From Oscillospiraceae bacterium NTUH-002-81 (GTDB lineage: Bacteria > Bacillota > Clostridia > Lachnospirales > Lachnospiraceae): a DNA stretch of 64,000 nucleotides. The position numbers and the translations under genes were made by a program. The notes under the pieces are model-generated. The model searched no databases. It was not told where the DNA came from and was given only the letters and a program-made list of their open reading frames with translations. Where the stretch lies: positions 403,001 to 467,000 of the forward strand of contig CP136052.1 of assembly GCA_032620915.1 (NCBI GenBank), given 5' to 3'. Positions 25,554 to 60,600 of this stretch are shown here, one piece after another; the stretch's first letter is position 1; each line of letters starts with the position of its first letter.

Positions 25554-25886
25554 ATGAAAAGAATATTGGTTAAAATTGTGCTTCCGGTATCGTTGCTGGC
25601 AGTTTGGATGATAACCTGTTATCCGATTTGCAGAAAAGCAGAAGGATTTGATTTTTTCCTGTATTGGGTACTGGTCGGCTGTCCTTATGGGATCAGAAAA
25701 ATGTGTATGATTCTCATACCAAAAAATTTCGGAATTGCAGGAAGTATAGGAATACTGGCACTGAACTGTATTGTAGGTGGTCTGATTGGCGGTGTGGTTG
25801 TAATTCTGAGAATGGTTATGGTGCTGATGGAGATAATAAAGATAATCAGTGATACTTCTGGACACGATGTCCAAAGGTGCAGATGA
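25554..25886 (+). CDS. DUF6050-like small membrane protein with palindrome-encoded tail
   Basis: A membrane protein of about 110 residues from ATG 25554 (MKRILVKIVLPVSLLAVWMI), or 140 from ATG 25464. Hydrophobic helices lie at residues 5-22, about 33-50 and 68-100. It resembles DUF6050 proteins of Clostridial ICEs (name from memory). The shorter form fits where the helix begins; neither start has a strong ribosome site, possibly because the IS110 insertion replaced the original upstream DNA. The last residues, TSGHDVQRCR, come from a copy of the ICE-wide 15-bp palindrome and look like an added tail. Confidence 0.55.
   Translation: MKRILVKIVLPVSLLAVWMITCYPICRKAEGFDFFLYWVLVGCPYGIRKMCMILIPKNFGIAGSIGILALNCIVGGLIGGVVVILRMVMVLMEIIKIISDTSGHDVQRCR
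25859..25873. repeat. ICE palindrome copy 1 (TGGACA-cga-TGTCCA)
   Basis: Exact 15-mer at the 3' end of the DUF6050-like gene, translated as SGHDVQ. Confidence 0.85.
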
Positions 25887-25932
25887 AAAGCGAAAATGAA
25901 AAAGGCATTGTTCATCAATCAGAACAACACCT

Positions 25933-26139
25933 TTAATTATCATCCGGGACGTATTCCATAATCTCTTCAATCCGGCAGTTAAGTATCTGGCAAAGCCTGT
26001 TTAAAATAAGCGTTTTTACAACAAGGTTCTGCCGAAGCCGCTGAAGCTGTGCTTTATCAATGCCATAATCTTTGATAAGCTGGTACTGGCTGATTCCTTT
26101 TTCCTTTAGCGTACGCCAAAGCGGATCGTATTTAATCAT
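25933..26139 (-). CDS. XRE-type helix-turn-helix regulator
   Basis: A 68-residue protein, MIKYDPLWRTLKEKGISQYQ to EEIMEYVPDDN, a minimal Cro/CI-like HTH (recognition helix within GIDKAQLQRLRQNLVV). ATG 26139 (minus) has AAAGGAG 8 bp upstream; the longer frame to 26223 runs through the divergent promoter region. It is divergent from the gene at 26240, and an operator-like palindrome lies between them. A repressor of itself and the rightward ICE genes is the natural reading. Confidence 0.8.
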   Translation of the reverse strand: MIKYDPLWRTLKEKGISQYQLIKDYGIDKAQLQRLRQNLVVKTLILNRLCQILNCRIEEIMEYVPDDN

Positions 26140-26191
26140 ACTGAAAGCTCCTTTCCACACTTGTATTCTAAGTGCATGAAACATATAATAA

Positions 26192-26213
26192 TATGGTGCG
26201 TGTACGCACCATA
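26192..26213. promoter_or_regulatory. Operator-like palindrome of the XRE regulator
   Basis: TATGGTGCG (26192-26200) and CGCACCATA (26205-26213) are perfect inverted arms around TGTA. It lies in the 100-bp gap between the divergent HTH gene and the gene at 26240, where a repressor would block both directions. Confidence 0.6.
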
Positions 26214-26239
26214 AAACATACAAGGAGAGTAAAAAAGTT

Positions 26240-26401
26240 ATGGAACATAATGAGTTTAAGGATCAGCTATACGAAGTATTAGATGAAAATGATGTGGCTT
26301 TAGGGATTGAGGATATAGATACCTCTGATGCCGCAAATATTTTTACAATAAAAACAAGGGACGGAAGTGTTTTTGAAATAGAAACACGGAAGATTGAATA
26401 A
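26240..26401 (+). CDS. Small acidic ICE protein of unknown function
   Basis: A 53-residue protein (MEHNEFKDQLYEVLDENDVA to FEIETRKIE). CAAGGAGAG lies 13 bp before ATG 26240, a long spacing. It is the first gene rightward of the operator-like palindrome, so it is probably controlled by the divergent HTH protein. I recognise no family. Confidence 0.5.
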   Translation: MEHNEFKDQLYEVLDENDVALGIEDIDTSDAANIFTIKTRDGSVFEIETRKIE

Positions 26402-26439
26402 GAGGCAGCACGATGCCTCGAAACAGGAGGTTTGCAACT

Positions 26440-26808
26440 GTGGAGAAAAGTTACATTACAGACATAGAACGGGAACGGTGCAAAAAGGTTGCCGCAGCCT
26501 ATGCAGAACTGTATGAGCTGGAAAGCATTTTGGTATTGGATGTAGGACGGTACGGTTTTGTGAAGCTGCAATATTACACACCGGAGTATGGATTTAATGA
26601 TGTTATAACCTATACAGACAGTGAGAGTATGTTTGAGGACTTATGGCAGGAATGGCTTGATACCCGGCTCTATCTCTTCGCAAAGGGAACGCCGATGCTG
26701 GAAATGGGATATGAGGAAATCTTCAAATGTCTGCCGGAGGAAAAACAGAAAGAGCTTTTAGAGCAAAAAGCAGTATTTGCAAAAATGGCAGAAATAGAAC
26801 TGAAATAA
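26440..26808 (+). CDS. ICE accessory protein of unknown function
   Basis: A 122-residue soluble protein starting at GTG 26440, chosen because AGGAGG ends 9 bp upstream; the ATG at 26413 precedes that site. The core (DIERERCKKVAAAYAELYEL, VLDVGRYGFVKLQYY, EDLWQEWLDTRLYLFAKGTP) belongs to a protein type I recall near virD4 in Clostridial ICEs, without known function. A terminator-palindrome block follows directly. Confidence 0.65.
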   Translation: MEKSYITDIERERCKKVAAAYAELYELESILVLDVGRYGFVKLQYYTPEYGFNDVITYTDSESMFEDLWQEWLDTRLYLFAKGTPMLEMGYEEIFKCLPEEKQKELLEQKAVFAKMAEIELK

Positions 26809-26818
26809 AACAGCGTCA

Positions 26819-26859
26819 GGGCAGTTATGAATTGAAAGATTTGTAGCTGCCCTTTTTTT
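26819..26859 (+). terminator. Terminator inside the duplicated block, copy 1
   Basis: GGGCAG (26819-26824) pairs with CTGCCC (26847-26852), followed by T7. Confidence 0.75.
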
Positions 26860-26867
26860 ATTGCTTT

Positions 26868-26882
26868 TGGACACGATGTCCA
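26868..26882. repeat. ICE palindrome copy 2
   Basis: Exact TGGACA-cga-TGTCCA, intergenic, about 9 bp before the ribosome site of the gene at 26901. Confidence 0.85.
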
Positions 26883-26900
26883 GAAGCGGAAAGGAGCAAA

Positions 26901-27557
26901 ATGGAATCATTACGAGATGTAAAAAGAGTTATGGAACGGGAGATAGAGAAAGGGAGCTGCCCATTACAGTTTGAATATCTGGAATTTGGAGAAAAACCGT
27001 TTCAGTTCATAGAATCAGAGGAAAAGCTGAATGAGGTGCTTTCGTATTTGTTGCGGTTGGGGGAATATAGAGGATATACGGAGCATCTTGTAGGAAATAA
27101 CGTGTATATGGATTTGGATATGTTGTGCCGGAAAATTCAGTTTAAGCGTACCCATTCCCCTGTGGAGCGTAGTGAAATCCAGTGGAAAATACAACGCTAT
27201 AAAAATAAACTGAAACCGGACTATGCAGGTAAGGTTTGTTTAGAAATAGTGCAGTGCGTTTTCAGTCTGCCGGAAGGAGCAGCGGAGAAGGACCAGATTG
27301 TATATGATGGACAGAAAACCTATGCTTTTGCCATGTCAAATAAGTATATTCTGGGACTTTTTACTCATTGTGAAGCCGCAAGAAAATCTGCTGTGGAGGA
27401 CGGTGTGGAGTTTGTACATCTGCCGGAGAATGAACAGAAAATCGTCAGTCTTGAAAATGTGAGGAATGTGTTGTTTCAGGCATTGCTGCTTGATAATGTT
27501 ACGGTGGAGAATGGTCTGTTCCATGCACAGATGTGTACGGTTATGCTGTTGAAATAA
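26901..27557 (+). CDS. ICE protein of unknown function
   Basis: A 218-residue soluble protein (MESLRDVKRVMEREIEKGSC to CTVMLLK) with no membrane segment and no motif I can name. AAAGGAG lies 6 bp before ATG 26901. It sits between two palindrome copies in a run of accessory genes before pcfB. Codon use matches the ICE. Confidence 0.6.
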   Translation: MESLRDVKRVMEREIEKGSCPLQFEYLEFGEKPFQFIESEEKLNEVLSYLLRLGEYRGYTEHLVGNNVYMDLDMLCRKIQFKRTHSPVERSEIQWKIQRYKNKLKPDYAGKVCLEIVQCVFSLPEGAAEKDQIVYDGQKTYAFAMSNKYILGLFTHCEAARKSAVEDGVEFVHLPENEQKIVSLENVRNVLFQALLLDNVTVENGLFHAQMCTVMLLK

Positions 27558-27572
27558 ATGTACCGGAAATAT

Positions 27573-27600
27573 TTGATACAGGCATAAATTTTGTTATAAT
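27573..27600 (+). promoter_or_regulatory. Promoter before the gene at 27636
   Basis: TTGATA (27573-27578) and TATAAT (27595-27600), 16-bp spacing. Confidence 0.65.
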
Positions 27601-27635
27601 GGCTTTGAACAGAATTTGTCCGAAAGAGGGATTGT

Positions 27636-27995
27636 ATGAAACCAAATCATCATTCACTGGCATATAAACAGCAGAAACAGCCGAATAAGACCTATAAGGA
27701 TTTAAAACAGAAGCAGAAGATGAAAATAGCAGACTGGATGTTTCGGGAAACCTGCATTTTCTATAAGGAAAATGGAGAGATACCAAATGAGGAGGTAGCA
27801 AAGCAGATTATTGACCGGATTTATGAAAAACTGAAATCTCTTGCAATCTGGGTTCCGTATGAAGAGGTTTACCGAGCATATCTTTTAAAATTGCCACGAT
27901 ATGAGCTTCGTATTGCGGAAAATGGGATACCGGAAGAAAAGCCGCCGAAGGAGAAAAAGGAGGATGTGCCGAAAAAGAAAAAAGGGAAGCAGTAA
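27636..27995 (+). CDS. Basic ICE protein of unknown function
   Basis: A 119-residue protein with lysine-rich ends (KQQKQPNKTYKDLKQKQK; PPKEKKEDVPKKKKGKQ) around a helical centre (IADWMFRETCIFYKEN; EEVAKQIIDRIYEKL). It may bind nucleic acid, judged only from charge. A promoter with near-consensus boxes lies 36 bp upstream. Its 3' end overlaps the next small ORF in another frame. Confidence 0.6.
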   Translation: MKPNHHSLAYKQQKQPNKTYKDLKQKQKMKIADWMFRETCIFYKENGEIPNEEVAKQIIDRIYEKLKSLAIWVPYEEVYRAYLLKLPRYELRIAENGIPEEKPPKEKKEDVPKKKKGKQ

Positions 27996-28185
27996 TAAGC
28001 GGTGTCCGGTATGCGGCAGGAGAATGAAACAGCAGTTTATTGGTTTGCAGCATTGCAAATGTGGAATGAGCTGGAAAAAGGACATCGGCTTTTTTGAGCG
28101 AACCGGAGATATGGTGTTTGCCTTGGAGCGGAGAAAAATAGGAAATAAACAAAAACAGTGCCCTGTCATTCGATATAAGGAATAG
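27964..28185 (+). CDS. Small zinc-ribbon protein
   Basis: About 73 residues from ATG 27964, overlapping the previous gene by 32 bp in a different frame. CPVCGRR and CKCGMSW form a CxxC/CxC zinc-ribbon-like pair, following a very basic start. AAGGAG lies about 10 bp before this ATG. The start is uncertain; the conserved part begins near KRCPVCG. Confidence 0.45.
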   Translation: MCRKRKKGSSNKRCPVCGRRMKQQFIGLQHCKCGMSWKKDIGFFERTGDMVFALERRKIGNKQKQCPVIRYKE

Positions 28186-28212
28186 GGCATGGAAAAACAG
28201 AAAACAGCGTCA

Positions 28213-28252
28213 GGGCAGTTATGAGTCGAAAGATTTGTAGCTGCCCTTTTTT
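28213..28252 (+). terminator. Terminator inside the duplicated block, copy 2
   Basis: GGGCAG (28213-28218) pairs with CTGCCC (28241-28246), followed by T6. Confidence 0.75.
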
Positions 28253-28260
28253 ATTGCTTT

Positions 28261-28275
28261 TGGACACGATGTCCA
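28261..28275. repeat. ICE palindrome copy 3
   Basis: Exact TGGACA-cga-TGTCCA, intergenic, 10 bp before the GGAGG site of the gene at 28300. Confidence 0.85.
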
Positions 28276-28299
28276 GAAGCCGGATGGAGGTCAGATGAA

Positions 28300-28725
28300 A
28301 TGAAAAAGAGAGAATTTCAGAAAAAAGCAGCCGCAGCGTTATTGGGAAAACTGGCAGATGTTGTGATGGAACTGGAAGAAAATCCAAACATCACAATAAC
28401 GTCGGAGTATCATAGTAGCTATTTTAAATTGAGAAAGAATTACAATCTGATTCAGATTTCGGTCAAGCAGACAGGAGAGCTGACGTATCAGTTGACGGAT
28501 ATGCTGGGAAACACAGGCAGAAGTCAGATTTATGTACAATATCATGCTGGAGATGATCCGGAACATTTGATAAAGAAGTTTGTTGAGGATTTTGGGCGGC
28601 TTTATAAGGATTTTCTTTTAGCGGGAACGCTGCATGATTTTGTTCGTATCCAGTTATCTGTGGATGCAGATACAGAGGAAGCATTAAGGGAGTACGAGGA
28701 CTGTATCAGAGCAGGCTGCCTGTAA
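28300..28725 (+). CDS. ICE protein of unknown function
   Basis: A 141-residue soluble protein (MKKREFQKKAAAALLGKLAD to CIRAGCL). GGAGG at 28286-28290 supports ATG 28300. Alternating strands (NITITSEYHSSYFKL, LIQISVKQTGELTYQL) suggest a small beta-rich fold. No family recognised. It stands between palindrome copies 3 and 4. Confidence 0.6.
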   Translation: MKKREFQKKAAAALLGKLADVVMELEENPNITITSEYHSSYFKLRKNYNLIQISVKQTGELTYQLTDMLGNTGRSQIYVQYHAGDDPEHLIKKFVEDFGRLYKDFLLAGTLHDFVRIQLSVDADTEEALREYEDCIRAGCL

Positions 28726-28736
28726 ATCAGAATTTT

Positions 28737-28751
28737 TGGACACGATGTCCA
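28737..28751. repeat. ICE palindrome copy 4
   Basis: Exact TGGACA-cga-TGTCCA followed by the same AGAAGCGGAAAGGAG as copy 2. Confidence 0.85.
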
Positions 28752-28770
28752 GAAGCGGAAAGGAGAGAAC

Positions 28771-28809
28771 ATGAAATATTTACTACATCGGCTGCTTGTT
28801 CCGCCCTGA
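28771..28809 (+). CDS. Possible 12-residue leader peptide before pcfB
   Basis: ATG 28771 to TGA 28809 encodes MKYLLHRLLVPP. AAAGGAG lies 6 bp upstream, a far better ribosome site than chance would give, and pcfB starts 35 bp after the stop. It may be a leader peptide or the remains of a longer gene. Confidence 0.3.
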   Translation: MKYLLHRLLVPP

Positions 28810-28844
28810 AGGAACAGCAGTAAAAAGGAAAGAAGGAGGTACAG

Positions 28845-29321
28845 ATGCAGGAAGAAGTAACGCAGAAAACAATCGCCCTTGTGATTAAGGCTGCAAAGCT
28901 GGATGCCAATATCCTGAAATCTGCCATGAGAATGTATCTGAATCATTGCAGAAAACAGGCACAGAAAACGCATGGGAAAGTGTCGGTTAAGGAACTGGTG
29001 GGCGAGGGTGCAGGTGCTTCATCCATTGAAATCACAGATGGCAATATCAAATCCTTTGAGCGGGTAGCTCGTAAATACAATGTTGATTTTGCTGTGAAAA
29101 AGGATAAGACCACCGAGCCACCGAAGTATCTGGTATTTTTCAAGGGCAGGGATGCCGATGCTGTGGCACAGGCATTTAAGGAATTTGTTTATGGAAATGA
29201 GAAAAAGAACAGTAGGACTTCTGTAAGGCAGAAATTAAAGCATTTCCGGGATGTGGTATCAAAGGATCAGAACAAAGAACGGAGCCGGGAAAAGAATAAG
29301 GACAGGGGGCAGAGCCTATGA
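28845..29321 (+). CDS. pcfB: PcfB family conjugation protein (DUF3801)
   Basis: A 158-residue cytoplasmic protein of the PcfB family, which in pCF10-type systems helps deliver the relaxosome to the coupling protein. The conserved part is residues 1-115 (EEVTQKTIALVIKAAKLDAN; KVSVKELVGEGAGASSIEI; KDKTTEPPKYLVFFKGRDAD). The last 40 residues are basic and disordered (KHFRDVVSKDQNKERSREKNKD). GAAGGAGG precedes ATG 28845. It overlaps the virD4 start by 4 bp, as expected for partners. Confidence 0.88.
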   Translation: MQEEVTQKTIALVIKAAKLDANILKSAMRMYLNHCRKQAQKTHGKVSVKELVGEGAGASSIEITDGNIKSFERVARKYNVDFAVKKDKTTEPPKYLVFFKGRDADAVAQAFKEFVYGNEKKNSRTSVRQKLKHFRDVVSKDQNKERSREKNKDRGQSL

Positions 29322-30624
29322 CTAATATCATAGCAGGCATTACCAAAGATTTAAAAGCTGTCCCCAAAAAGCTGAAGGAAAAAGCAAAAAGTGCAGATGT
29401 TAAAAAGCTGATACTGCTGAATCTTCCCTATGTGCTTGCCGGGTACTTCTGTAATAAGGCAGCATTTTTATGGAGAGTGGCAGAGGGCAGTAATGCGTCT
29501 GACAAGATGATGGTAGTAATGAGCCAAATGGACAGGATGTTTTCCAATCCGTTCCCCAGTTTTTTTCTGAGTGATTTGCTGATTGGAATCGCCGGAGGCG
29601 TTGCCTTAAAATTCATTGTTTATTATAAGGCGAAGAATGCCAAGAAATTCCGGCAGGGTGTGGAATACGGTTCTGCACGGTGGGGGAATGCCAAAGATAT
29701 AGAGCCATATATGGATTCTGTATTTGAAAATAATATTCTTCTGACCGCTACGGAGCGTCTGATGATGTCCGGCAGACCGAAAGAACCGAAGTATGCAAGA
29801 AATAAAAATATTCTTGTGATTGGCGGTTCCGGCTCCGGTAAAACAAGATTTTTCGTGAAGCCGAACCTGATGCAGATGCACTCGTCCTATTGCGTCACTG
29901 ACCCGAAAGGCACAATCTTAGTGGAATGTGGGAAGATGCTGAAGCGGGGCAAGTATAAGATTAAAGTCCTCAACACCATAAACTTTGCAAAATCCATGCA
30001 TTATAATCCATTTGCTTATCTGCGGAGCGAAAAGGACATTTTGAAACTCGTCAACACAATCATAGTCAACACAAAAGGAGAGGGGCAGCAATCCGGTGAG
30101 GACTTTTGGGTCAAAGCAGAAAAACTCTATTATACAGCATTGATTGCATACATCTGGTACGAAGCACCGGAGGAAGAACAGAATTTTGCCATGCTGATTG
30201 ATATGATTGATGCAAGTGAAGCAAGAGAGGACGATGAAAACTTCAAAAATGCTGTTGATCTGCTCTTTGAGGAGCTGGAGGAAAAAGACCCGAACCATTT
30301 TGCTGTAAGGCAGTATAAGAAATATAAGCTTGCGGCAGGAAAAAACAGCGAAGTCGATTCTGATTAGCTGCGGTGCGAGGTTAGCACCATTTGATATAAA
30401 AGAGCTGCGTGACCTGATGGAATATGATGAACTGGAGCTTGACACGCTGGGAGAGGAAAAAACAGCGTTGTTCGTTATTATTTCTGATACAGATGCTACG
30501 TTTAACTTTGTGGTGTCTATCATGTATTCCCAGCTCTTTAATTTGCTTTGCGACAAGGCAGACGATGTTTATAACGGAAGGCTCCCGGTTCATGTGCGTA
30601 TGCTCCTTGATGAGTTTGCGAACA

Positions 30625-33431
30625 GTGTGACACGTTCTACGCCGAAAACGGTGGGAATAACCGACAAAAGCGTAGCCTAAAGTCACAAATAATTTAATAA
30701 ATGTGGTTTTAGAGAACTGCATAACTGAAATTTCAAATGAAGGGGTAACGCCCTGAAGGGAATTCACTAATACTCCGAATAGCGTTAGTCGGATACAGAC
30801 GATTAAGGTTATAAGCTCGGGGAAGTCGTGCGAAGCACACCCTAACACTGCAAGGTGAGGAAAGGTTTGTAGAGGTACAAGCTGTGTGTGACAGTGCGGG
30901 TGGGGTTGCCATATGGTTAGAATGACCAGTAAGGCGGTCTGACAAAATTCCGAATGTACGGCTCTAAACGAATGGCTGGCAGAAATGCCAGTGTACCAGT
31001 AGGTACGCAAGTGGGGTAAAGTAAAAGTTGTTAGTATGAAATACCCTCTGTGTTTACAGGACACAGGTATCTATAAAGATAATACTTGCAGGGCTAAAGG
31101 AATGACCTAAGTGACAACAATCCTAAGTTATGTGGAACGTGGAAAGCAACCAATACGGGAACTGACTGTATCAGTGACAAAGTACCGTAGTTGTGTCGAA
31201 AAGGAAAGGTATAAAGGAATCCTTTCTACAATAAGCACATTTATGGTTGTGAGAGTAGTGGCACAGTACCGATGAAACCGTGATAATAAGCGGTGGAGGG
31301 ATAGCCACAAGCCGATACTAAGATTTCCTTTATGTCTATATAGTAATCACCAAATGGAGATTTTCATAGCTGTCGAGGTGAGACGAAGAAAAAATCATTC
31401 TCCAATAAGGAGTTGGTTACTATGGCAAAACGAATTGTAAATAAAGCAGAAAGAAATGCAGAAAGATATGACGCAAAAGAAACTGGATATCAGTTATATG
31501 AAGGCAGTCTGAAAGGTAATAAATTTGACAGGCTTATGCCCCTGATAGTATCAGAGCAGAATATCATACTTGCATATCGGAATATCTGCAAAAATAACGG
31601 GAGCAAAACCCCTGGAACAGATGGGAAGACAATAACAGAAATTCAGTCACTCCCAATCGAAACGGTCATTAAAACCGTCAGAAATAAATTGAACTTTTAT
31701 CAGCCTAAAAAGGTCCGGCGTGTAGAAATACCAAAAGACAATGGAAAAACCAGACCATTAGGAATCCCAAGTATATGGGATAGACTGATACAGCAATGTA
31801 TTCTGCAAATACTGGAACCGATTTGTGAAGCAAAATTTCATGAACGAAATAATGGGTTCAGACCATACAGGTCAACGCAAAATGCGATTGCTCAATGCTA
31901 TAAAATGGCACAGTTGCAAAATCTGCATTTTGTAGTAGATGTGGACATTGTTGGATTCTTTGACAATATTGACCATAATAAGCTGATTCGGCAGTTGTGG
32001 GGACTTGGAATACAGGACAGGAAACTGATTATGATAATCAAACAGATGCTAAAAGCAGAAATCCTGTTTAATGACATTGTAATTACCCCGGAAACAGGTA
32101 CACCACAGGGGGGATTTTATCCCCACTTCTTGCAAATGTAGTATTGAATGAGCTGGACTGGTGGATTGCTAATCAATGGGAGATGTTTAAAGTCAAAGAT
32201 GGAAAATCCGGACTGGAATTTTACAGGACTGATAAGGAGGGAAATATCCTCACAATAGACAGGTCACCAAAGTGGAAAAAGCTGAGGGAAAAGACAGAAC
32301 TTAAAGAAATGTACATCGTAAGGTATGCAGACGATTTTAAGATATTCTGTCGGGACTATGTAACAGCTAAGAAAGCCATGTATGCAACAAAACTATGGCT
32401 TGCAGAACATTTACATCTGCAAACAAGTGATGAGAAATCTGGAATCACAAACTTGCGTAAGAACTATACAACTTTTCTTGGAATCAAATTTAAAGTTGTT
32501 CCAAAAGGTGATAAATGGATAATCCGTTCACATATAGCCGACAAAAGTAAAGATAAGGTTATCAATAAGCTGCGGACTGTCTGGAAAGATATCAAAAATC
32601 CAAGCAAGCAAAGCGAAATTGATAAAAACATAAGTCTTTACAATTCAATGGTTATGGGTATGCACAATTATTATTGTATGGCAACAATGGTATCAGCAGA
32701 TTTTGCAGAAATCGCCTATAAAGTGAATGGGAAAAGTAACGGTATGAACCACAATAACCGATGTTTTCCGATAACAAAAACGGGTGAGATAACCAGTAAA
32801 TTTATCCAACAAAAGTATGGAAAGTCAAAGCAGTTCCGATGGATAAAAGGAAGAATGATTATTCCAGTAGGGTATGTGGCGTATGAATATCCAAAATACA
32901 AAAGGCGGGAAGTCAATAAATATGTGAGGAAGTATTCAGACATCGAAAACTGTATCAGTTATGATGTTATGAAATATATGATGGGAAATGCACATCTTTA
33001 TCCGACCTTGGAGATGGCAGATAATGCCCTTTCAAGGTATATAGCACAAAAAGGAAAATGTGCAGTAACACACAATGCCCTGTCAATAACAGACATGGTA
33101 TGTATACACATAAAACCGTGCAAAGGTGAGCGAAATGACACATATAGGAATTTGATAATTTTATCCAAAGATGTGTCAAAATTGGTTGATGCAACAGAAA
33201 ATAAAGTAATAAAGAAACTGTTGCAGAATTTAACATTGACCGTGGAAATGCAAGAAAAAATAAACAAACTCCGAAAATACAGGGAGTTGGAAGAAATACA
33301 ATTCGAGGACTATATAGGCACTAAAATGTAATCTTAGTCGGTGGAACGCCGTGTGATGGGAAACTATCACGCACGGTGTGGAGTGGGGGAAAAGCCCGAG
33401 GTGGTAACACCAGAGGCTTACCTATCACTAT
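30625..33431 (+). mobile_element. Group II intron 1 in virD4
   Basis: It begins GTGTGACA (30625) and ends CACTAT (33431), giving 2,807 bp. The 5' exon end AACA and the 3' exon TCGGGCAG rejoin to Asn-Ile-Gly-Gln in frame. A domain V-like hairpin lies at about 33342-33380 (CCGTGTGATGGGAAACTATC). It encodes its own reverse transcriptase/maturase. Confidence 0.88.
31422..33331 (+). pseudogene. ltrA: Group II intron 1 reverse transcriptase/maturase, -1 frameshift
   Basis: Intron-encoded protein with a reverse transcriptase domain (GTDGKTITEIQSLP; KTRPLGIPSIWDRLIQQCI; NNGFRPYRST; VVDVDIVGFFDNIDH), active-site YADD (RYADDFKIF) and a maturase/X region. At the C-terminus there is a degenerate HNH-like segment (CAVTHNALSITDMVCIHIKP). 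The G run at about 32108-32113 is one base short, so PQGG stops after 13 residues. The normal ILSPLLANVVLNELDWW continues in another frame from about 32115. ATG 31422 has AAGGAG 9 bp upstream. If the deletion is real, this intron would need a helper maturase. Confidence 0.82.
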
Positions 33432-33568
33432 TCGGGCAGATTCCACAGTTTGAGAAGCTGATTGCTACGATCCGAAGCAGGGAAATATCAGCTTCTATTA
33501 TTTTGCAGTCAAAATCACAGCTCAAAGCGATTTACAGGGACAATGCCGATACCATAGAGGGCAACTGC

Positions 33569-36078
33569 GTGCGCCCAGAAGTCGCCAGCGCAATATAAAT
33601 TGGCGACGTGGTATTTACAGGATACCGCCTTTAGCAAGCGGTAGGTAAAAGTATCAGGTGATGAAAAATCACAACCTATTATTCTACAACTTATCCGAGA
33701 GGGGAAACCCGAAGGGGAGTGTAGCATGTTGTTGTTCCAGTTGGAACGTAAATAGGAAAGGCGCTAATCCTATGCGTCAGAATATTTAAGAATAAAAATC
33801 AGTGTATGAGGTACAAAGCTAAACTGCCTAAACGATAGCCAGAGTGGGGGAACCTGTGCCCCGCATACGAAAAGGATTGAAACGTATGCTTTTCATGTTG
33901 GTTTCATTTCGCAGTTATGAAAGCAAGCGATACTCATGAAAGAGCAACCGCAAGACAGCGGATAAATGGCGAAAGTCGGTGCCGACAACACTGAATGCTA
34001 ATCCTGTATTTACTAACTGGGGATGACCTAAACCTGGTAACAGGCATGGTCACACAGCTCCCATAGTAGTCCGAGACGTTAATGACGTTCACATGGCGAA
34101 GGGGAGCAGCTTATCAGAAAATACTAAAATGAAGGAAGGTGCGAGAGGCATTGAGAAATCCAACTGAGGTATTGAAAAATTTGATGGAAAAGTCAAAGAA
34201 TGAAACTTACAGATTTCAGAGATTATACAGAAATCTGTACAATCCGGAGTTTTATTGGCTTGCGTATAAAAATATCTACGCAAATGATGGCAGTATGACT
34301 GCCGGAGCTGATGGAACAACGATTGATGGCATGGGTAACAAGAGAATTGAGAGGATTATTTTATCCTTAAAAGACCGAAGTTACCAACCTAAGCCTGCAA
34401 GAAGAGAATATATTGCAAAGAAAAACAGCAGTAAAAAACGTCCTCTGGGTATTCAGTCGGGGGATGATAAACTCGTGCAGGAAGTCGTTAAGATGATTTT
34501 GGAGAGTATTTATGAGCCTGTGTTCAGTAATAAATCACATGGGTTCAGACCAAACAGAAGCTGTCAGACAGCACTGAAACAGATACAGAACACCTTTACT
34601 GGTGCGAACTGGTTTGTGGAAGGAGATATACACGCTTGTTTTGACAGTTTCGACCACCATGTAGTTATCGACCTCTTGAAAAAGAGGATTGATGACGAAG
34701 CGTTTATCCAGCTTATATGGAAATTCCTAAAAGCAGGATATATGGAACAATGGACATTCAACAGAACCTATAGCGGAGTGCCGCAGGGGTCGGGAGTCAG
34801 TCCAGTGCTGGCAAATATTTACCTTCATGAATTGGACAAATTTATGGAAAATTATGCAGAAAACTTCAATACAGAAGCTAAGAAGAAACATTTTTCTACT
34901 GCATATAAGTCCAGTGTCGGTAAGGCATACAGATATAGGAAAAAGGGCAGAGAGATATGGGATAGTCTGTCTGACGAAGAAAAGAAAATCAGATGCAAAA
35001 ATCTTAAGGAACTGGAAATGATTGAAAAATCTACAACACCTTACGTCTATAACGACAGTAATTATAAAAGGGTGCAGTATACGAGATATGCGGATGATTT
35101 TATCATCGGGGTTATTGGTAGCAAAGCAGACGCAGAAGCTATCAAGAAAGACGTGAAAATATTCCTGCAAAAAGCATTGAAATTAGAAATGTCAGACACT
35201 AAGACAAAGGTTACGCACACTGGAGACAGAGCAAGATTTCTAGGTTACGACATTACGGTATCAAGAGTGCAGACGCTACAGAAGGCTTCTAACGGAAGGG
35301 TTCAGAGATGTCAGACAGGAGTTGTTAAACTGTACGTTCCACGCGAAAAATGGGTAGGTAAGTTAATTGAATACAAAGCAATGAAAATCAAAATCAACGA
35401 AAACGGAAAAGAGAGATTTGTAGCCCTTCATAGGGGAAAACTGGTAAACCAGAGCGATATTGAAATTCTCGCAAGATACAATGCAGAAGTCCGTGGACTA
35501 TATAATTATTACACCATAGCGAATGACTCCTTTAAAATAGGGAGATTTGCCAATGTAATGAAATACAGCATGTATAAAACATTTGCGTGCAAGTATAAGA
35601 CGAATGTTCATGAGATTAAGCGGAGATATTGCAGAAACGAATTATTTACAGTTGCGTATGAAACAAGGCAGGGAATGAAAACAACAACATTCTACAGGGA
35701 TGGTTATAAACGGAAGGAATGTGCTACAAAGTTTGATAATGTAAGCGAGCTTCCGCAGTTTTCAAGATATGCCAAAACTAACACTCTCAAACAGAGAGTG
35801 GAACGTCATACTTGTGAATTATGCCAAAAAGACTGTAGAAATCTGGTAATACACCAAGTTAAGAAACTCAAAGATTTAAAGGGAAATACAGAGTGGGTAT
35901 TACTCATGCGAAAAAGGAGACGGAAAACACTCGTGGTATGCCCCGAATGCCATAATTTAATTCATTCGTAACACCGCAAATGATAAGCGGAAAGCCGTAT
36001 ACATCGAGAGGTGTACGTGCGGTTTGGGAGGGAGTGGATGCAAGTCCTTTTCGAAGGATGAGCTGAAGCTTACCTCAT
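33569..36078 (+). mobile_element. Group II intron 2 in virD4
   Basis: It begins GTGCGCCCAG (33569), the classic start of Ll.LtrB-like introns, and ends CCTCAT (36078), giving 2,510 bp. The exons rejoin as GGC AAC TGC / GAC ACT ACG in frame. A domain V-like hairpin (AGCCGTATACATCGAGAGG) lies at about 35991-36025. It is unrelated in detail to intron 1 and lies only 137 bp of exon away from it. Confidence 0.88.
34139..35971 (+). CDS. ltrA: Group II intron 2 reverse transcriptase/maturase
   Basis: Complete intron-encoded protein of up to 610 residues. The reverse transcriptase domain (about residues 50-330) contains MTAGADGTTIDGMG, KKRPLGIQSGDDKLVQEVV, SHGFRPNRSCQTAL, GVPQGSGVSPVLANIYLHEL and the active site RYADDFIIG. 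The maturase domain is at about 400-520 (YNAEVRGLYNYYTIA). An HNH endonuclease with CELCQKDC and CPECHNLIH closes the protein. The start is either GTG 34139 or TTG 34151 (MRNPTEVL); GGAAGG precedes both. It could promote splicing and mobility of its own intron and possibly of intron 1. Confidence 0.9.
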   Translation: MREALRNPTEVLKNLMEKSKNETYRFQRLYRNLYNPEFYWLAYKNIYANDGSMTAGADGTTIDGMGNKRIERIILSLKDRSYQPKPARREYIAKKNSSKKRPLGIQSGDDKLVQEVVKMILESIYEPVFSNKSHGFRPNRSCQTALKQIQNTFTGANWFVEGDIHACFDSFDHHVVIDLLKKRIDDEAFIQLIWKFLKAGYMEQWTFNRTYSGVPQGSGVSPVLANIYLHELDKFMENYAENFNTEAKKKHFSTAYKSSVGKAYRYRKKGREIWDSLSDEEKKIRCKNLKELEMIEKSTTPYVYNDSNYKRVQYTRYADDFIIGVIGSKADAEAIKKDVKIFLQKALKLEMSDTKTKVTHTGDRARFLGYDITVSRVQTLQKASNGRVQRCQTGVVKLYVPREKWVGKLIEYKAMKIKINENGKERFVALHRGKLVNQSDIEILARYNAEVRGLYNYYTIANDSFKIGRFANVMKYSMYKTFACKYKTNVHEIKRRYCRNELFTVAYETRQGMKTTTFYRDGYKRKECATKFDNVSELPQFSRYAKTNTLKQRVERHTCELCQKDCRNLVIHQVKKLKDLKGNTEWVLLMRKRRRKTLVVCPECHNLIHS

Positions 36079-36496
36079 GACACTACGCTGTTTCTCGGAG
36101 GAAAGGAAAAGACCACCCTAAAGGAATTAGCAGAGGTATTGGGGAAAGAAACCATTGACCTGTACAACACCTCGGATACGAGGGGGACGAGCCAGTCCTA
36201 CGGTCTGAATTACCAAAAGACCGGAAAGGAACTGATGAGCCAAGATGAGATTGCTGTCATGGATGGCGGGAAATGTATTATGCAGCTTAGAGGTGTCAGA
36301 CCATTTTTCTCGGATAAATTCGATATAACGAAGCACAAGCGGTACAAAGAGCTGTCCGATTATGACAAGAAAAATGCCTTTGATATGGAACAGTATGTGA
36401 AACATCTGCACCACTTGAAGGTCACAGAAAAGACAAAGGTAGATGAAGCCTTTGAATGCGGGGAGATTTCCCCGGATACAACTGAATAGGAACATT

Positions 36497-36511
36497 TGGA
36501 CACGATGTCCA
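36497..36511. repeat. ICE palindrome copy 5
   Basis: Exact TGGACA-cga-TGTCCA, 8 bp after the virD4 stop codon. Confidence 0.85.
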
Positions 36512-36596
36512 GAGGTACAGGAGTTTTGCGGATAGAAAGCAATGCTCCTTATTTTTTGCAAAAAATAAATTTTCGGAAAGAACGAGGTAACTGAAT

Positions 36597-36812
36597 ATGG
36601 CATTTTTTACATCAGCAGTAACAGGATTAAAGACCGTTGTAACCGCAATCGGAGCAGGCGTGGCAGTATGGGGCGTTATCAATCTTCTTGAGGGATACGG
36701 AAATGATAACCCAGGGGCAAAATCACAAGGGGTCAAGCAGCTCATGGCGGGTGGCGGTATTGTAATTGTGGCACAGACGGTAATTCCGCAGCTTACAAGC
36801 CTGTTTTCCTAA
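36597..36812 (+). CDS. Maff2 family small membrane protein
   Basis: A 71-residue protein with two hydrophobic helices (about residues 10-30 and 48-66) around a glycine-rich loop (LLEGYGNDNPGAKSQGVKQL). This is the Maff2 family, found directly after virD4 in Clostridial ICEs. Its layout resembles VirB2/TrbC pilin-like subunits, so a role in the channel or pilus is inferred. It lies 3 bp before the VirB6-like gene. Confidence 0.8.
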   Translation: MAFFTSAVTGLKTVVTAIGAGVAVWGVINLLEGYGNDNPGAKSQGVKQLMAGGGIVIVAQTVIPQLTSLFS

Positions 36813-36815
36813 GTC

Positions 36816-37688: not shown

Positions 37689-37751
37689 AACACATTTCAA
37701 AGAAAGGAGGGAACAGCCGGGGCTTGCAGTATCAGCTCCGGCTGTGATGTT

Positions 37752-40696: not shown

Positions 40697-40711
40697 TGGA
40701 CACGATGTCCA
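40697..40711. repeat. ICE palindrome copy 6
   Basis: Exact 15-mer inside the CD1108-type gene, in frame as TSGHDVQRS. Confidence 0.85.
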
Positions 40712-40753: not shown

Positions 40754-40768
40754 TGGACAGAATGTCCA
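40754..40768. repeat. ICE palindrome copy 7, variant centre
   Basis: TGGACA-gaa-TGTCCA, in frame as ASGQNVQKS, 42 bp after copy 6. Confidence 0.75.
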
Positions 40769-47256: not shown

Positions 47257-47271
47257 AAAGGAGACAGAAAA

Positions 47272-48616: not shown

Positions 48617-48967
48617 ATGAAACTGACATACGAAAAGAACGGGGATTATCTGATTCCGAACCTGACAGCGAACGAGGAACCGGAGGGAACGCTGACGAAG
48701 TACGGTATGATGCGGAAGAACTTCTTACAGGAACACCGGAAAGGGATTTATCAGGGCATGATACTGGCGGGCGAGCTGAAAGCACACTGTCTGGAGATAC
48801 AGGAGCAGGCAGAGCAGAGAATGGAAGCCCTGAGCGAACAGATGGCGAAAGCAGAGGGAGTGAACGAGGAACTGAAAGCAGCCGATCAGATGAAGTGGGT
48901 AGCGAAGATGAACAACATCAGACATTCAGCGGAGGAGATCGTGCTGACGGAACTGATTTACAGTTAG
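48617..48967 (+). CDS. tnpV: TnpV-like protein nested out of frame in the helicase gene
   Basis: A 116-residue protein (MKLTYEKNGDYLIPNLTANE to AEEIVLTELIYS) of the transposon-encoded TnpV family (named after Tn4451-type elements; function not established). It is read in the +1 frame within the helicase linker. AAGGAGG at 48601-48607 stands 9 bp before ATG 48617; the ATG at 48608 is too close to that site. The helicase frame across the same bases is low complexity (Glu, Gly, Ser, Asp, Arg), whereas this frame reads as an ordered helical protein. The two coding frames therefore share about 350 bp. Confidence 0.75.
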   Translation: MKLTYEKNGDYLIPNLTANEEPEGTLTKYGMMRKNFLQEHRKGIYQGMILAGELKAHCLEIQEQAEQRMEALSEQMAKAEGVNEELKAADQMKWVAKMNNIRHSAEEIVLTELIYS

Positions 48968-51323: not shown

Positions 51324-51338
51324 TGGACACGATGTCCA
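51324..51338. repeat. ICE palindrome copy 8
   Basis: Exact 15-mer inside the helicase gene, in frame as TSGHDVQKS, just before the methylase domain. Confidence 0.85.
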
Positions 51339-54300: not shown

Positions 54301-56503
54301 ACGAAAATGCGGAATGTGGCGGGCATTGCACAGACGGAAGCACAGAAGTCCTCCGATATGTTTGCTAAGTGCCAGTACCTTGATGAGCTGACTGGCGGAA
54401 AGGGCATTACGTTTGCTACGGGTACGCCGATCAGCAACAGTATGACGGAGCTTTACACCAATATGCGGTATCTTCAGTATGGTACGCTTCAGAAGATGGG
54501 ATTAGGGCATTTTGACAGTTGGGCAGCTTCTTTTGGAGAAACACAGACCGCCATTGAGCTGGCACCGGAGGGAACAGGATACCGGGCAAAGACAAGATTT
54601 GCAAAATTCTTCAATCTGCCGGAGCTGATTGCACTTTTCAAGGAGAGTGCGGATATCCAGACACCGGATATGTTAAAGCTGCCTGTGCCGGAAGCAGAAT
54701 ATGAGAACGTGGTGCTGAAACCCAGCGAATATCAGAAAGAGATGGTAACATCGCTGGCAGATCGGGCGGAGGCAGTGCGTAACAGACTGGTAGAGCCGCA
54801 TCAGGATAATATGCTCAAGATTACCAACGATGGAAGAAAACTGGCACTCGACCAGCGTCTGATCAACGATATGCTCCCCGATGAGGAACATTCCAAAGCA
54901 AAAACCTGTGTGGATAAGGCATTTGAGATTTGGGAAGATACCAAAGGGGAGAAATCAGCACAGCTTATTTTCTGTGATTTATCGACACCGAAAGGAGATG
55001 GTACATTTAATGTCTATGAGGATATAAGAAATAAACTGATGGAAAAAGGTGTTCCCGCAGAAGAAATCGCCTTTATACATCAGGCAAATACGGAGCTTAG
55101 GAAAGCGGAGCTGTTCAGTAAGGTAAGAAGCGGACAGGTTCGTTTTTTATTGGGTTCTACTGCAAAAATGGGAGCCGGGACAAACGTGCAGGACAGACTG
55201 ATTGCTCTGCACCACCTCGATGTACCGTGGCGTCCGTCTGATATTGAACAGCAGGAGGGGCGTATTTTGCGGCAGGGCAACAGGAATCCAAAGGTTAAGA
55301 TTTTCCGGTATGTGACAGAGGGAACATTTGACAGCTACTCATGGCAGCTTATCGAGAATAAGCAGAAATTTATCGGTCAGATTATGACAAGCAAATCTCC
55401 GGTGCGAAGTTGTGAGGATGTGGACGAAGCAGCACTTTCTTATGCAGAGGTTAAGGCTCTGGCAACGGGGAATCCCTATATAAAAGAAAAGATGGATTTG
55501 GATATTCAGGTCAGCAAGCTGAAACTGATGAAAGCCAACCACACCAGTCAGAAATACCGTCTGGAGGACAACATTGCAAAGCATTATCCACAGCAGATAA
55601 CCATTCTGAAGGAGCGTATCAGTGGCTTGCAGGCAGATATTCAGACTGCAAAAACCAATCTCCCAGCAGATAAGGAGTTTTTCTCTATGAGGGTCGGGAA
55701 TAAGGTCTATACGGATAAAAAAGAAGCCGGAACTGCACTTGTGGAGATGTGCAAAGAAATCAAGAGCGTTAATGCTCCGGCAGTCATTGGAGAGTATGCA
55801 GGCTTTAAAATGGCGGTGTCCTTTGATTCCTTTAACCATAAATTCGTTATGAACATCAAAGGACAGCTCAGTCATAATCTGGAGATTGGTGTTGACCCGC
55901 TGGGTAACATTTCCCGTATCAACCATGCGTTGGAAGCCATGACAAAGGAACTGGCAGAAGCATCCACAAAGCTGGAGAATGTGGAGCGTCAGCTTGAAAC
56001 AGCGAAGGTAGAGGTTACAAAGCCATTTGCACAGGAAGCAGAGCTTTCAGAGAAGTTAGACCGCCTTTCTGCCTTAAATGCCCTGCTCAATATGGACGAA
56101 AAGGGAGATGACGGAATAGGTATGGAAGATGATAAATCGGAACTGGGTACTGAGCAGGTGGCAGATACCAGAAAACCGTATCCCATAGAAAATACCCGAC
56201 ATAATTATGCTGTGGAGAATGGAAATCCGCAGGGAATGAGGCTCACAGCAGCGATGGCGGATAAGCCGGCACAGAGGGTATCCTTGAAAGAAAAGCTTGA
56301 GACTATGAAAGTAAAGGCTGCGGGGAATAATATAGAAAATTCCGTGCAAAGAGATAAGGGGAAGGAGGAGTATTTGTAATTATTATATTTCTTTTTATGC
56401 AAATATGAAATATAATATTAGTTCAAGGGAAATATAGTGATAGAGCGATTTGGAAAAAGCTAAAGAGAAATGGAGACAACGTAATACATAAAAATGGAAA
56501 TTG

Positions 56504-56530
56504 AATTTGTCAGACACTGTCTGACAAATT
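56504..56530. promoter_or_regulatory. 27-bp palindrome upstream of the YhcG-type gene
   Basis: AATTTGTCAGACA (56504-56516) and TGTCTGACAAATT (56518-56530) are perfect arms around one C, 15 bp before the start codon at 56546. An operator, or a site recognised by the gene product, is possible. Confidence 0.6.
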
Positions 56531-56545
56531 CGGAAAGGATATATT

Positions 56546-57575
56546 ATGAATGATTTAGAGCAGACAAATATGCTTCAGCCATTGGTGGATGAGATTGAAA
56601 CAGCAGTTTCAAATGCCAAAAAAGAGATAGCTGAAAAAGTAAACAGTGTAATTACAGAGACGTATTGGAAAATCGGAAAATATATTGTTGAGTTTGAGCA
56701 GGATGGAAATGTTAAAGCAGCATACGGTTCAAAATTATTAACAACACTCTCGCATCAATTAACTTTGCGATTGGGACGAGGATACAGCCGCCCAAACCTC
56801 AACAATATGCGGAAGTTTTATCTTTGTTATGAGAATTGTCAGACGGTGTCTGACAAATTGACATGGTCGCATATTTGTGAGCTGATAAAGATTGATGATG
56901 AATTAGAAAGAAGTTTTTACGAAAAAGAATGTTATAAGGAAAAGTGGGATGTAAGAACACTCAGGCGACAGATGGATTCCGCTTTGTTTCTTAGATTAGC
57001 TACAAGCAGAGATAAAGAAGGAATTCTGGCACTTGCCAGAGAGGGAATTACTTATGACAAGCCAGAGGATGTTATCAAGGATACTTACACATTAGAATTT
57101 TTGGGACTTCCGGAGAAAGAGCGTTATAGTGAGGAAGACTTGGAGCAGAAAATAATAGATAATCTCCAAAAATTCTTGTTGGAATTAGGAAAAGGATTTA
57201 CCTTTGTGGGCAGGCAGTATCCCTTTAACTGTAAACAATATTCATTACCATGTGGACTTGGTATTTTACCACAGAATTTTGAAATGCTTTGTGCTGATTG
57301 ATTTAAAGAAAAATTCCGTCCAGCATATAGACATCGGTCAGATGAATATGTATATGGGGTATTTCGCAAAAGAAGAAAATATGGCAGATGATAACCCACC
57401 GATTGGCATTATCCTGAGTCATAACAAAGATGAACTGCTTGTAGAATATGCAACTTACGGTATGGACAGCAATTTATTTGTTTCAAAATATGAATTGTAT
57501 CTGCCAAATCGCAATGAACTCCAAAAATTAGTGAACAATATTTTAGAGAAGGATACAGAAAAGAAAGAAGAGTAA
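56546..57575 (+). pseudogene. YhcG-type PDDEXK nuclease (DUF1016), one +1 frameshift
   Basis: A 342-residue protein after removing one base near 57221-57226 (CCCTTT). The N-terminal DUF1016 domain (about residues 10-165; LTLRLGRGYSRPNLNNMRKF, LTWSHICELIKIDDELERSF) precedes the YhcG PDDEXK nuclease (about 175-335; FTFVGRQYPLTVNNIHYHVD, VDLVFYHRILKCFVLIDLK). Catalytic Asp and the LIDLK lysine are present. The family contains defence-associated or DNA-repair nucleases and is frequent on mobile elements. GGAAAGGAT precedes the start. A palindrome lies upstream and a near copy of it lies inside the gene. Confidence 0.82.
56834..56859. repeat. Second copy of the YhcG palindrome, inside the gene
   Basis: AATTGTCAGAC and TGTCTGACAAATT around GG, coding CQTVSDKL within the YhcG protein. 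Confidence 0.6.
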
Positions 57576-57619
57576 TAAAAAAGCAATCTAAAAAAGATGC
57601 AAATTGAATAGGCATATCG

Positions 57620-57650
57620 AAAAAGACAATCAGAGATGGTTGTCTTTTTT
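57620..57650 (+). terminator. Terminator after the YhcG-type gene
   Basis: AAAAAGACAA (57620-57629) pairs with TTGTCTTTTT (57640-57649), ending in a T6 run. Confidence 0.75.
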
Positions 57651-57680
57651 GCGTGGAAAAAAAGAAAGGACAATCGAATT

Positions 57681-60600
57681 ATGGAAGATAAAAATACCGT
57701 TTACATGAGTGAAAAGCAAAAAGTCAAAGAGATTACGGATAAGCTGGAAGCTGGTTTGAAAGAGCTTTTTGAGAGTGAAAAATATAAAAGCTATCTCAGT
57801 ACCATGTCAAAATTTCATAATTACAGTTTTAATAATACGCTGCTGATTGCCATGCAGAAGCCGGAAGCTACGCTGGTGGCAGGTTATCAGGCGTGGCAGA
57901 AGAACTTTGAGCGGCACGTCAATAAAGGAGAAAAAGGCAATCCGTATTCTTGCACCAGCTCCTTATAAAATCAAAGAGGAACGTGATAAGTTAGACCCTG
58001 TAACGGGAGAAATGATGTTTGATGAAAACGGTATGCCGCAGAAAGAGGAAACAGAGGTTACCATTCCTGCCTTTCGTGCGGTATCTGTTTTTGATGTATC
58101 GCAGACGGATGGCAAGCCTATTCCGGAACTGGAAGTGAATGAGCTGTTATCTACGGTGGAGGGATATGAGGATTTTGTCCAGGCGCTTATGAATATTTCT
58201 CCTGTTCCGATTGCATTTGAAGATATTCCCGGCGATTCCAAAGGGTATTTCAGTACAGCAGAAAAACGGATTGCTGTTCAGGAAAATATGAGCGAAAGCC
58301 AGACTTTGAAAACAATGGTGCATGAGGTGGCTCATTCCAGGCTGCATGATAAAGAAGTTAATCAGAGCATGGATATTCCGGTAAAGGACAGGAATACAAA
58401 GGAAGTGGAAGCGGAGAGTGTGGCTTTTACAGTGTGCCAGCATTTCGGTATAGATACATCCGATTATTCCTTTGGATATATCGCAGGCTGGAGCAGCGGC
58501 AGGAATATGAAAGAGCTGAAATCTTCCCTTGATACAATCCGAAAGACAGCTTCAGAACTGATTACAGGCATTGAGGGGGCAATGCAGGAGCTTCAGCTTA
58601 ACCGGGAGATGGAGCAGGAACATGGAAAGGAAAGCATTCTGCTGGTACATAACGAGGATTTTTCAGAATACAATCTTGTCAGTGTCCGTGGAATGGACAG
58701 TGCAGAACTTATATCCGCTCTTTCTACCATGAATGAAGAGGATAAATCGAATATATCATCTTATCTTGAAAGCAAAGGAGCATGGACTACCGAACTTGCT
58801 GACGAGCAGACGGAAGAAGCGGAGGAATATCATATTGATGTCCGCTATAACATGGATACAGACGAGCTTATTGATGTAAAGGAAAGAATGGAACACCCCA
58901 TTGATACCAATTTATCTGTCATGGGGCAGGCAGAACAACTTATCAATCAGTTGGAAGCAGAAAAAAATATTTTCACGTCTGAGGAGCGAAATCTGATTGT
59001 AAATTATGCCTATAAACTTGATGATATGAATAAAACAAGGGAACTTGCAGAGAAACTGGCATATAGGGAGCAGTATGCCCAACAGGATGTGGCATTGACC
59101 ATAATTGATGCAAAGGCGGAGATTGATGCCCTGCCTGATCCGATGATTGGTTTGTCGGAAATGAGGGAATATGGCTATCAATGGAATGAAATGCTGCCAT
59201 TAACACAAGAGAAAGCATTGGAATTATTTGAACATGATTTGCCTGTATATTTGCTTCATACTGACGGTGCGGAATCATTGGCAGAAAGCAGGGAGCGTAT
59301 AGAAGAGCATGAAGGTATCTTTGGGGTTGAAAAGGAAACATGGAATAAAGCATTGAAACAGCAGACTAAGATTACACTTATCTTAATGGACGAACAGGAG
59401 CGAGAATATACATACCCGTATCCAGTTGTGGCTGTCGATATAGAAGAAATGGGTGGGGATAGAACTGCGGTATTCAAGACCTCAGAGCCTATTTCAGATA
59501 CTGATGTGGCAGAAATTCATAATGCTTTTTATGGAACTGATTTGGAATTTGAAATAGAAAAAGAATTAGGTATCACATGGGTGGAATCTATTAACTATGA
59601 GGACGGATCTGTTATTACACCTGAAATGGCAAGAAAAGAGCAGCTCCTATATGCTAGTACTGATAAATATGGAATTTATCAATTAAAGCCTAATCCGGAA
59701 TTAGATTCCTTACGTTTTGAGGGGACGGAATCCTTAAAGCGTATGGGCATTACAAAAGATAATTTTGATGCAATTAAACCAGAGAATTATACACTTTTAT
59801 ATGTGGGCGAATTATCTGAACTGCAAAAAGAGACGCAGGGGGCAACTTTAGAGGCAATCTTTGAAAAATTCAACCTTGACCACCCAGAAGATTTCAGAGG
59901 ACATTCGCTATCTGTCAGCGATATAGTGGTGCTTCATCAGAACGGACAGAATACGGCTCATTTTGTGGATTCTTTTGGATATACGGAAATACCGGATTTT
60001 TTACGGGAGCAGACACCGGAAAAGGAAGAAATGCAGGACACTTCTGGACACAATGTCCAAAAGACAGAACCGGAAATAGATGGAGATGAAATCATTGATC
60101 TTGGCGATGAAACAGAACAGGTGCTTGCGGAAATGAAAAAAACTTTGGAAAGTGAACAGGAAACAGAACTGGCATTTTCTATTGCAGACCGTTTTATCAG
60201 CATTCAGGAAGTGGATGGCGGTTATGATTATTCCATTATGGGAGCTGATTATAAGGAGATTGACGGAGGAATTTATGATAATCCTGATGTGACGATAAGG
60301 GAAGCCTTGCATGATATTTTAGAGGATTTGAAGTCACAGCCGGATTACAATGGTGCAAAAGGAAATATCCAAAGAGAAGATGAACTGATACCGATGGATT
60401 ATGATGGACTGATGGAAAAAGCAGAGGAAGCAAATCGTATTATTCCGGAGAGTACACCAAGCAGTGTGGTGGCAGATTTTAAGGCAAAAACCGGGGAATT
60501 ATTCCACGATATTAGTGAAATGAATCCGGAAGAAATCGAGGAAACTGTGAAATGCCATGTGCAGGCGAAGATTGAAGAGTATGATATTAATGCAACAATC

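Follow-up and report, generated by a model that had tools for sequence, protein, structure and literature searches.

We analysed a window of 64,000 nucleotides (C1:403001-467000) from the genome of Oscillospiraceae bacterium NTUH-002-81, a single contig of 3.62 Mb. The window holds an integrative and conjugative element (ICE), which we take to be Tn1549/CTn-like, and nine copies of the palindrome TGGACA-N3-TGTCCA are dispersed over it. These palindromes are very probably operators of the ParB protein of the ICE, because residue 174 of ParB covaries with one base of the palindrome arm and because the arm and the ParB helix-turn-helix (HTH) change jointly among related ICEs. An earlier sequence-only reading of the window had proposed parS-like sites for the element's own ParB as one of several possibilities, and the residue-base covariation strongly supports it. 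As an overall explanation, the comparison of sequences argues with high confidence for parS/KorB-like operators with an exchangeable cassette of site plus reader.

The sequence-only reading had located nine copies, and all of them are present at those positions with both 6-bp arms exact. The centre is CGA in 7/9 copies and GAA and CAA in one copy each, so that it varies in two copies as had been said. The claim that chance cannot account for this number also holds. At the rate of exact sites in the remaining genome, 0.023 copies are expected in 41.3 kb compared to 9 seen (P about 5e-21). Of the 11 exact sites in the entire genome, 9 are in the window ICE and only 2 elsewhere; thus, the word is not equally frequent in the host chromosome. 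A search at up to 2 mismatches gave 10 matches versus 2.27 expected. The bare 12-letter word is non-specific alone: at least one copy, mostly a single one, occurs in 81 of 250 genomes of the family, and the reversed control word is likewise present in many of them. The unusual feature is the clustering of the palindromes, rather than the word itself. The extent had been given as 15 bp. This exact core stands, but the palindrome is longer, most copies adding an imperfect CTT(C/T)...(G/A)AAG outside. As described before, five copies lie inside genes, all in the frame that reads SG(H/Q)(D/N)VQ, and three intergenic copies directly precede a ribosome site. The nine palindromes, to which no strand is assigned, are as follows (L and G numbers are our handles for stretches and genomes).

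Palindrome 1, 25859..25873: tail of the DUF6050 gene (TSGHDVQR); the related ICE L045 has a site there in a different reading frame.
Palindrome 2, 26868..26882: flanked by a terminator-like hairpin (26818-26853) and a ribosome site, with 33 bp to the open reading frame (ORF) at 26901.
Palindrome 3, 28261..28275: flanked by a terminator-like hairpin (28212-28247) on one side and the ORF at 28300 on the other.
Palindrome 4, 28737..28751: 108 bp before the DUF3801 gene.
Palindrome 5, 36497..36511: between the end of the type IV coupling protein (T4CP) gene and the TrbL gene, 319 bp before the latter.
Palindrome 6, 40697..40711: N-terminal linker of the M23 peptidase gene; the M23 N-terminal part of L044 also has a site.
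Palindrome 7, 40754..40768: M23 peptidase N-terminal linker, as palindrome 6; centre GAA.
Palindrome 8, 51324..51338: linker of the gene for a large DUF3849 protein.
Palindrome 9, 60045..60059: YodL/LPD16 protein gene; centre CAA.

A 52-bp block with the terminator-like hairpin is duplicated (26807-26858 and 28201-28252; 96% alike) and directly precedes palindromes 2 and 3.

The predicted reader and its putative DNA-contacting segment are encoded as follows.

ParB, predicted palindrome reader, 22028..22915, plus strand: ParB_N domain, TIGR00180 above cut-off, relatives in PDB, covariation with the site.
HTH codons, LDEVGEAAGESGKTVQRYIWL, 22499..22561, plus strand: the 21-residue windows here predict the arm best; the model helix spans 169-178 (295-aa numbering).
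Lys-174 codon, 22535..22537, plus strand: covaries with arm position 4; second residue of the model helix 169-178.

Residue 174 is counted in the stop-to-stop frame from 22016; translation starting at the TTG at 22028 would make it Lys-170. The relatives of this ParB in PDB are Spo0J, Noc, ParB and KorB, both by sequence and by structure model. It has GHRR where Spo0J has the GERR motif, which plays a role in CTP use by ParB. Related ICEs were reached through ParB matches in the 250 family genomes. We collected 137 distinct ParB frames, gave an arm to 115 (92 with an in-gene and 23 with an out-of-gene site), left out 22, and thinned the 115 to 52. Residue 174 is Lys or Arg in exactly the 29 of these 52 non-redundant ParBs whose assigned site has G at arm position 4. 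On the tree, the residue-174 trait and the arm-position-4 trait each change 13 times. The arm is best predicted by the ParB window 168-188, which lies outside the residues encoded by the in-gene site, whereas windows 140-161 overlap them. The highest-scoring covarying column in the whole ParB falls in the HTH helix. In a further set of 57 frames, 23 were typed (including L217 and L219), several being near relatives of earlier ones so that the sample is only partly independent, and 19/23 were placed in the tree. Two of the ParB loci on viral contigs (L128 and the contig of L282) had already been met in the other comparisons; among 8 other viral ParB frames, 7 obey the rule of Lys/Arg-174 with G4. 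According to PMC7383237, the specificity of Caulobacter ParB is set by a few DNA-interface residues, R173, T179, A184 and G201, and residue 174 adjoins one of them.

Many related ParBs hold the site inside their own gene. Relatives of a Hungatella hathewayi ParB with an in-gene site number at least 540 in named genomes (at least 591 stretches), and the best 80 were kept. Among these 80 and 12 from viral contigs, 88/92 near relatives have the in-gene palindrome with at most 2 mispairs. In a set of 98 relatives, 79 have it at parB codons 150-159, directly before the HTH. Two plasmids, one of Enterococcus faecalis and one of Subdoligranulum, also have the in-gene palindrome. The best match in plasmid records was 46% identical. 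A phage-like fragment of 5.1 kb encodes a ParB of 76% identity but lacks the site. We compared the 92 typed in-gene ParBs pairwise at a backbone identity of at least 90%. When the arms differ (1634 pairs), the HTH identity is 51%; when the arm is the same (275 pairs), it is 97%. Over the ten residues that follow the HTH, identity is back at 96%. In this set, no two ParBs with different arms have identical HTHs, and none that share an arm fall below 70% in the HTH. Six stretches (L273, L244, L268, L260, L240 and L115) have two ICE-type ParB genes close together, and in the first four only one ParB of the pair has the in-gene site.

These comparisons make it fairly probable that many ICE-borne ParBs of Clostridia have a centromere of their own within parB and swap it with the reader helix as a unit between ParBs that are otherwise nearly identical, that some lineages have spread the site over the entire element, and that mobilizable elements lacking a ParB carry the sites of one or two ICE types and so exploit the ICE ParBs. 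As part of this cassette, Lys/Arg-174 reading G4 would be a simple code that links helix and site. If so, a single exchange would create a new, self-consistent partition/incompatibility type. This suggests how partition specificity could change in one step without loss of the own site, a puzzle for two-part recognition systems.

The nine copies represent one type within a wider family of sites. These share the frame ACTTC-x4-CA-N3-TG-x4'-GAAGT, in which the inner letters are symmetric; they differ between ICEs yet remain palindromic. This frame is present in 52/250 family genomes versus 4/250 for the reversed control, with 25 matches in G144, 17 in G127 and 16 in G038, and it comprises over 20 arm types. 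A word-free search found an equal architecture with other arms, TGTGGTCA in G103 and TTGCGACA in G028:C20, and TTCGGG(T/C)CA occurs in 13 copies within 20 kb of G127. On viral contigs, 80 of 120 stretches were examined and gave 83 frame matches, of which 26 have at most one inner-arm mispair compared to about 4 by chance (13/256 of 83). The inner arms are palindromic in 11/11 viral matches in loci with a ParB homologue versus 15/72 elsewhere (P 5e-7). Stretches L119, L084, L216-L217, L219-L220 and L230 are ICEs that combine a long ParB frame (374 to 574 aa) with dense site arrays, L119 having 13 sites in 20 kb; the high frame counts of G144, G127 and G038 are further examples of such density. 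No ParA match was found in L119 and L084 over the stretches fetched; ParB and sites are nonetheless present in arrays that lack RepA or ParA matches.

We also compared where the sites lie in ICEs that have about 46-90% identity in their shared proteins. The site before the DUF3801 gene stands at 108 bp in our ICE and at 108, 111 and 109 bp in L044, L045 and L046. Our ICE has two copies between the DUF6050 tail and the gene at 26901, and L044, L045 and L046 have one clear copy each, which is 77, 106 and 73 bp before the orthologue of the latter gene. Sites precede the TrbL orthologue by 446 bp in L044 and by 320 and 369 bp in L045. More distant ICEs (L047, L052, L055) keep fewer of these places. 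The sequence-only reading had stressed the in-frame peptide. The frame itself is correct in the five genes, but the peptide is not a conserved feature: at the place where our DUF6050 tail reads TSGHDVQR, the copy in L045 is translated as FWTQCPEV in another frame. Some orthologues have the peptide (M23 of L044 and of L087), and in others it is missing or altered. Across 11 ICE sets, with ORFs taken as longest-frame guesses, 53/96 sites lie inside ORFs, where a coverage of 89% is expected (P 4e-17). The remaining 43/96 lie outside, where 11% is expected; of the 41 intergenic sites that are followed by a start codon, 14 end 15-31 bp ahead of that codon. A consensus promoter scan of 25300-29400 gave 3 matches compared to a shuffled mean of 9.2, and none is at a site.

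Small mobilizable elements carry the sites too. Six of seven small MobV elements (L215, L222, L223, L224, L277 and L279) have one or two sites 1.2-1.4 kb from mobV, and the seventh, L108, has no site. Their MobV relaxases are 92-100% identical to that of L224, and Pfam matches show RepA_N and a serine recombinase in L215 and L224. We found no ParB match in the fetched 7 to 20 kb of these elements. L215 lies in our own genome at about C1:2.94 Mb and has, near 10432-10482, two abutting sites of different arm types, CGGGACA and CTGGACA; L279, from a second genome, has an equal double site. One arm type of L215 is that of the window ICE, and the other is that of a second array elsewhere in this genome, where seven exact copies lie between 3.43-3.45 Mb amid transfer genes. 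Gene order suggests that this second array probably belongs with a Lys-174 ParB at 3.53 Mb, with another ICE in between. Sites on elements without a ParB match fit hitch-hiking on partition, though regulation could explain them too; by analogy, these MobV elements may exploit the ParBs of ICEs.

The ICE encodes ParA, ParB, RepA_N, T4CP, TrbL, PrgI, a VirB4-like protein, M23, a topoisomerase and an SNF2-like protein. Two genes flank parB.

ParA ATPase, predicted ParB partner, 21259..22041, plus strand: AAA_31 / CbiA.
RepA_N replication initiator, 22931..23980, plus strand: 23-bp repeats inside, 23343-23480.

The 23-bp repeats within the RepA_N gene are tandem and palindromic, and probably serve as iterons; comparable 23-bp repeats of other letters are present in several related ICEs. 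RepA was considered as the reader of the sites and rejected: it has its own repeats inside its gene, and stretches L119, L084 and L085 have no RepA match. G222, from another genus of the family, has a copy of the ICE with 98-100% identical proteins and the same nine sites. The T4CP gene is split by group II introns with reverse-transcriptase ORFs (29318-36489; Rfam matches at 30712, 33344 and 35990), and the G222 copy is ~5.3 kb shorter in this region. An IS110-family transposase gene lies at 24091-25344, between repA and the DUF6050 gene, and the G222 copy is ~1.6 kb shorter between parB and palindrome 1. At gathering thresholds, Rfam found only the group II introns in the ICE and no match at the palindromes.

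Other explanations were weighed against ParB operators. The sequence-only reading had also considered a palindromic element that spreads by itself and can insert into linkers without harm, like the Rickettsia palindromic elements. Dispersed copies in unrelated genes, in frame within linkers, would fit such an element. However, a repeat search found no common body beyond the palindrome and its outer arms, except the one duplicated 52-bp terminator block; the places are kept between related ICEs at several genes; and the arms differ by ICE and change in step with a ParB residue. The covariation contradicts a spreading element, and we consider it very unlikely. Its further suggestion, an RNA hairpin near ribosome sites, would agree with inverted repeats around a 3-nt loop, with symmetric changes, with the positions before ribosome sites and with the CGA centre on the coding strand in 7/9 own copies. 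Moreover, G-U-compatible mispairs (48) outnumber the mirror A-C mispairs (31) among 150 sites. Yet 61/109 mispairs are unable to pair in RNA, mixed half-sites recur (L054 retains three near copies of the mispaired TGGTCA...TGTCCA, and L052 has it too), several centres occur in both complements (AGT 54 / ACT 23, AAG 6 / CTT 6), and the arm tracks a protein residue. A hairpin is thus disfavoured and hardly credible. The sites might instead belong to another DNA-binding protein of the ICE, the match to ParB arising only from linkage of in-gene sites to the helix codons. The in-gene sites are indeed close to these codons, and the out-of-gene cases alone show no variation. Linkage preserves combinations, but it does not impose one Lys/Arg-G rule over 13 separate changes. 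In addition, the top ParB column falls in the HTH helix beside a specificity residue reported for Caulobacter ParB in PMC7383237, and the arrays without RepA or ParA matches still come with a ParB. We therefore regard another reader as unlikely.

Several observations weigh against ParB as the reader. Columns outside the HTH score too (Y147, z 9.2; G203, 8.3), which probably reflects shared descent. After thinning, all 21 cases with a site outside the gene combine Lys/Arg with G; the variation stems from in-gene sites, where physical linkage to the helix codons exists. The out-of-gene arms (n=23) were assigned by hand from sites in the same locus, and 22/137 ParBs are without an arm. The one miss of the viral set, L315, has a lone site 7 kb from parB. 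Five untyped frames would disagree were the sole nearby site theirs: L273m12663, L244m8763, L268p1659 and L228p6261 (site in the neighbouring ParB gene), and L267 (lone site). Co-resident ICEs show no avoidance of common arm types (2/28 pairs, null 1.8). Finally, 15/26 palindromic matches on viral contigs are in loci without a ParB match, and L229, L231 and L232 carry frame palindromes with neither a ParB nor a MobV match in the stretch. Stretches that have palindromes of the common frame but no ParB match, some of them viral, include L229, L231, L232, L301, L317, L318, L319, L338, L349 and L355.

We propose that a ParB dimer would recognise the split palindrome of the common frame through its HTH, with recognition-helix residue 174 reading arm position 4 (Lys/Arg for G), so that the arms would differ between ICE types. 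In one large ParB group, the site inside parB, beside the helix codons, would be exchanged together with them as a cassette; in the lineage of the window, the sites would have left parB and would now be scattered between genes or in linkers. As expected from the ParB family, ParB would load as a CTP clamp at the sites and then slide, and ParA and ParB would keep the excised, RepA_N-replicating circle in both daughter cells. By analogy with KorB, clamps at many sites near gene starts would probably also tune transfer-gene expression. Partition is probably the main role of the system. The converse, that the operators mainly control transfer genes in the manner of KorB or BisD, with partition minor or absent, is possible but doubtful. 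The excess of sites outside ORFs and close before start codons, the two own copies between a terminator-like hairpin and a ribosome site, and the lack of a ParA match in L119 and L084 speak for control. Against it stand the ParA and RepA_N genes beside parB in the window ICE, the many relatives with the site inside parB, away from promoters, and the sites on mobilizable elements, with the caveat given above. Partition and regulation may also act together. In summary, this analysis identifies a probable centromere, together with its likely reader, in a family of conjugative elements that is widespread in gut Firmicutes, offers a natural set of protein-DNA specificity pairs with a directly testable code, and points to mobilizable elements possibly exploiting ICE ParBs, as SGI1 does with IncC plasmids.

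Judged by titles and the starts of abstracts, literature searches on ParB/parS in ICEs, Tn1549 or conjugative transposons, in-gene parS, covariation, KorB and BisD returned no description of the site, and the literal palindrome words did not occur in the literature searched. The window has two traits of a ParABS system, a ParB with ParB_N and HTH and a ParA ATPase gene beside parB. A canonical chromosomal parS or NBS sequence is not a feature of plasmid ParABS systems, and the ICE palindrome differs from both in its letters and its N3 spacer. In Bacillus subtilis, a parS reportedly lies inside spo0J. The likeness to the chromosomal ParB-parS (Spo0J, Caulobacter ParB) and Noc-NBS systems consists of the ParB_N domain and HTH, the same fold by model, a palindromic site, and specificity set by few DNA-interface residues (PMC7383237). 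In contrast, the ICE site is a 25-bp split palindrome with an N3 middle and an element-specific arm, and the main covarying pair is residue 174 with arm position 4.

Dispersed operator-like sites at the element's genes are a KorB-like trait of the window ICE. Unlike it, KorB/O_B of plasmid RK2 has another host group, site sequence and site length, and KorB is only a weak sequence match to the ICE ParB (E 8e-5). We know of no site inside korB. BisD of ICEclc is, according to PMC13393423, a ParB-like protein that starts from its own bisS boxes and slides. BisD coactivates promoters with BisC, whereas ParA and RepA_N accompany ParB in the ICE here, and the site lies within the gene in many relatives. 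The mobilizable element SGI1, according to PMC10954446, has two copies of the parS of its helper IncC plasmid, and the MobV elements may likewise carry sites of the parS of a helper ICE. They differ from SGI1 in that the helpers here would be ICEs of Firmicutes and that two of the elements have abutting sites of different arm types.

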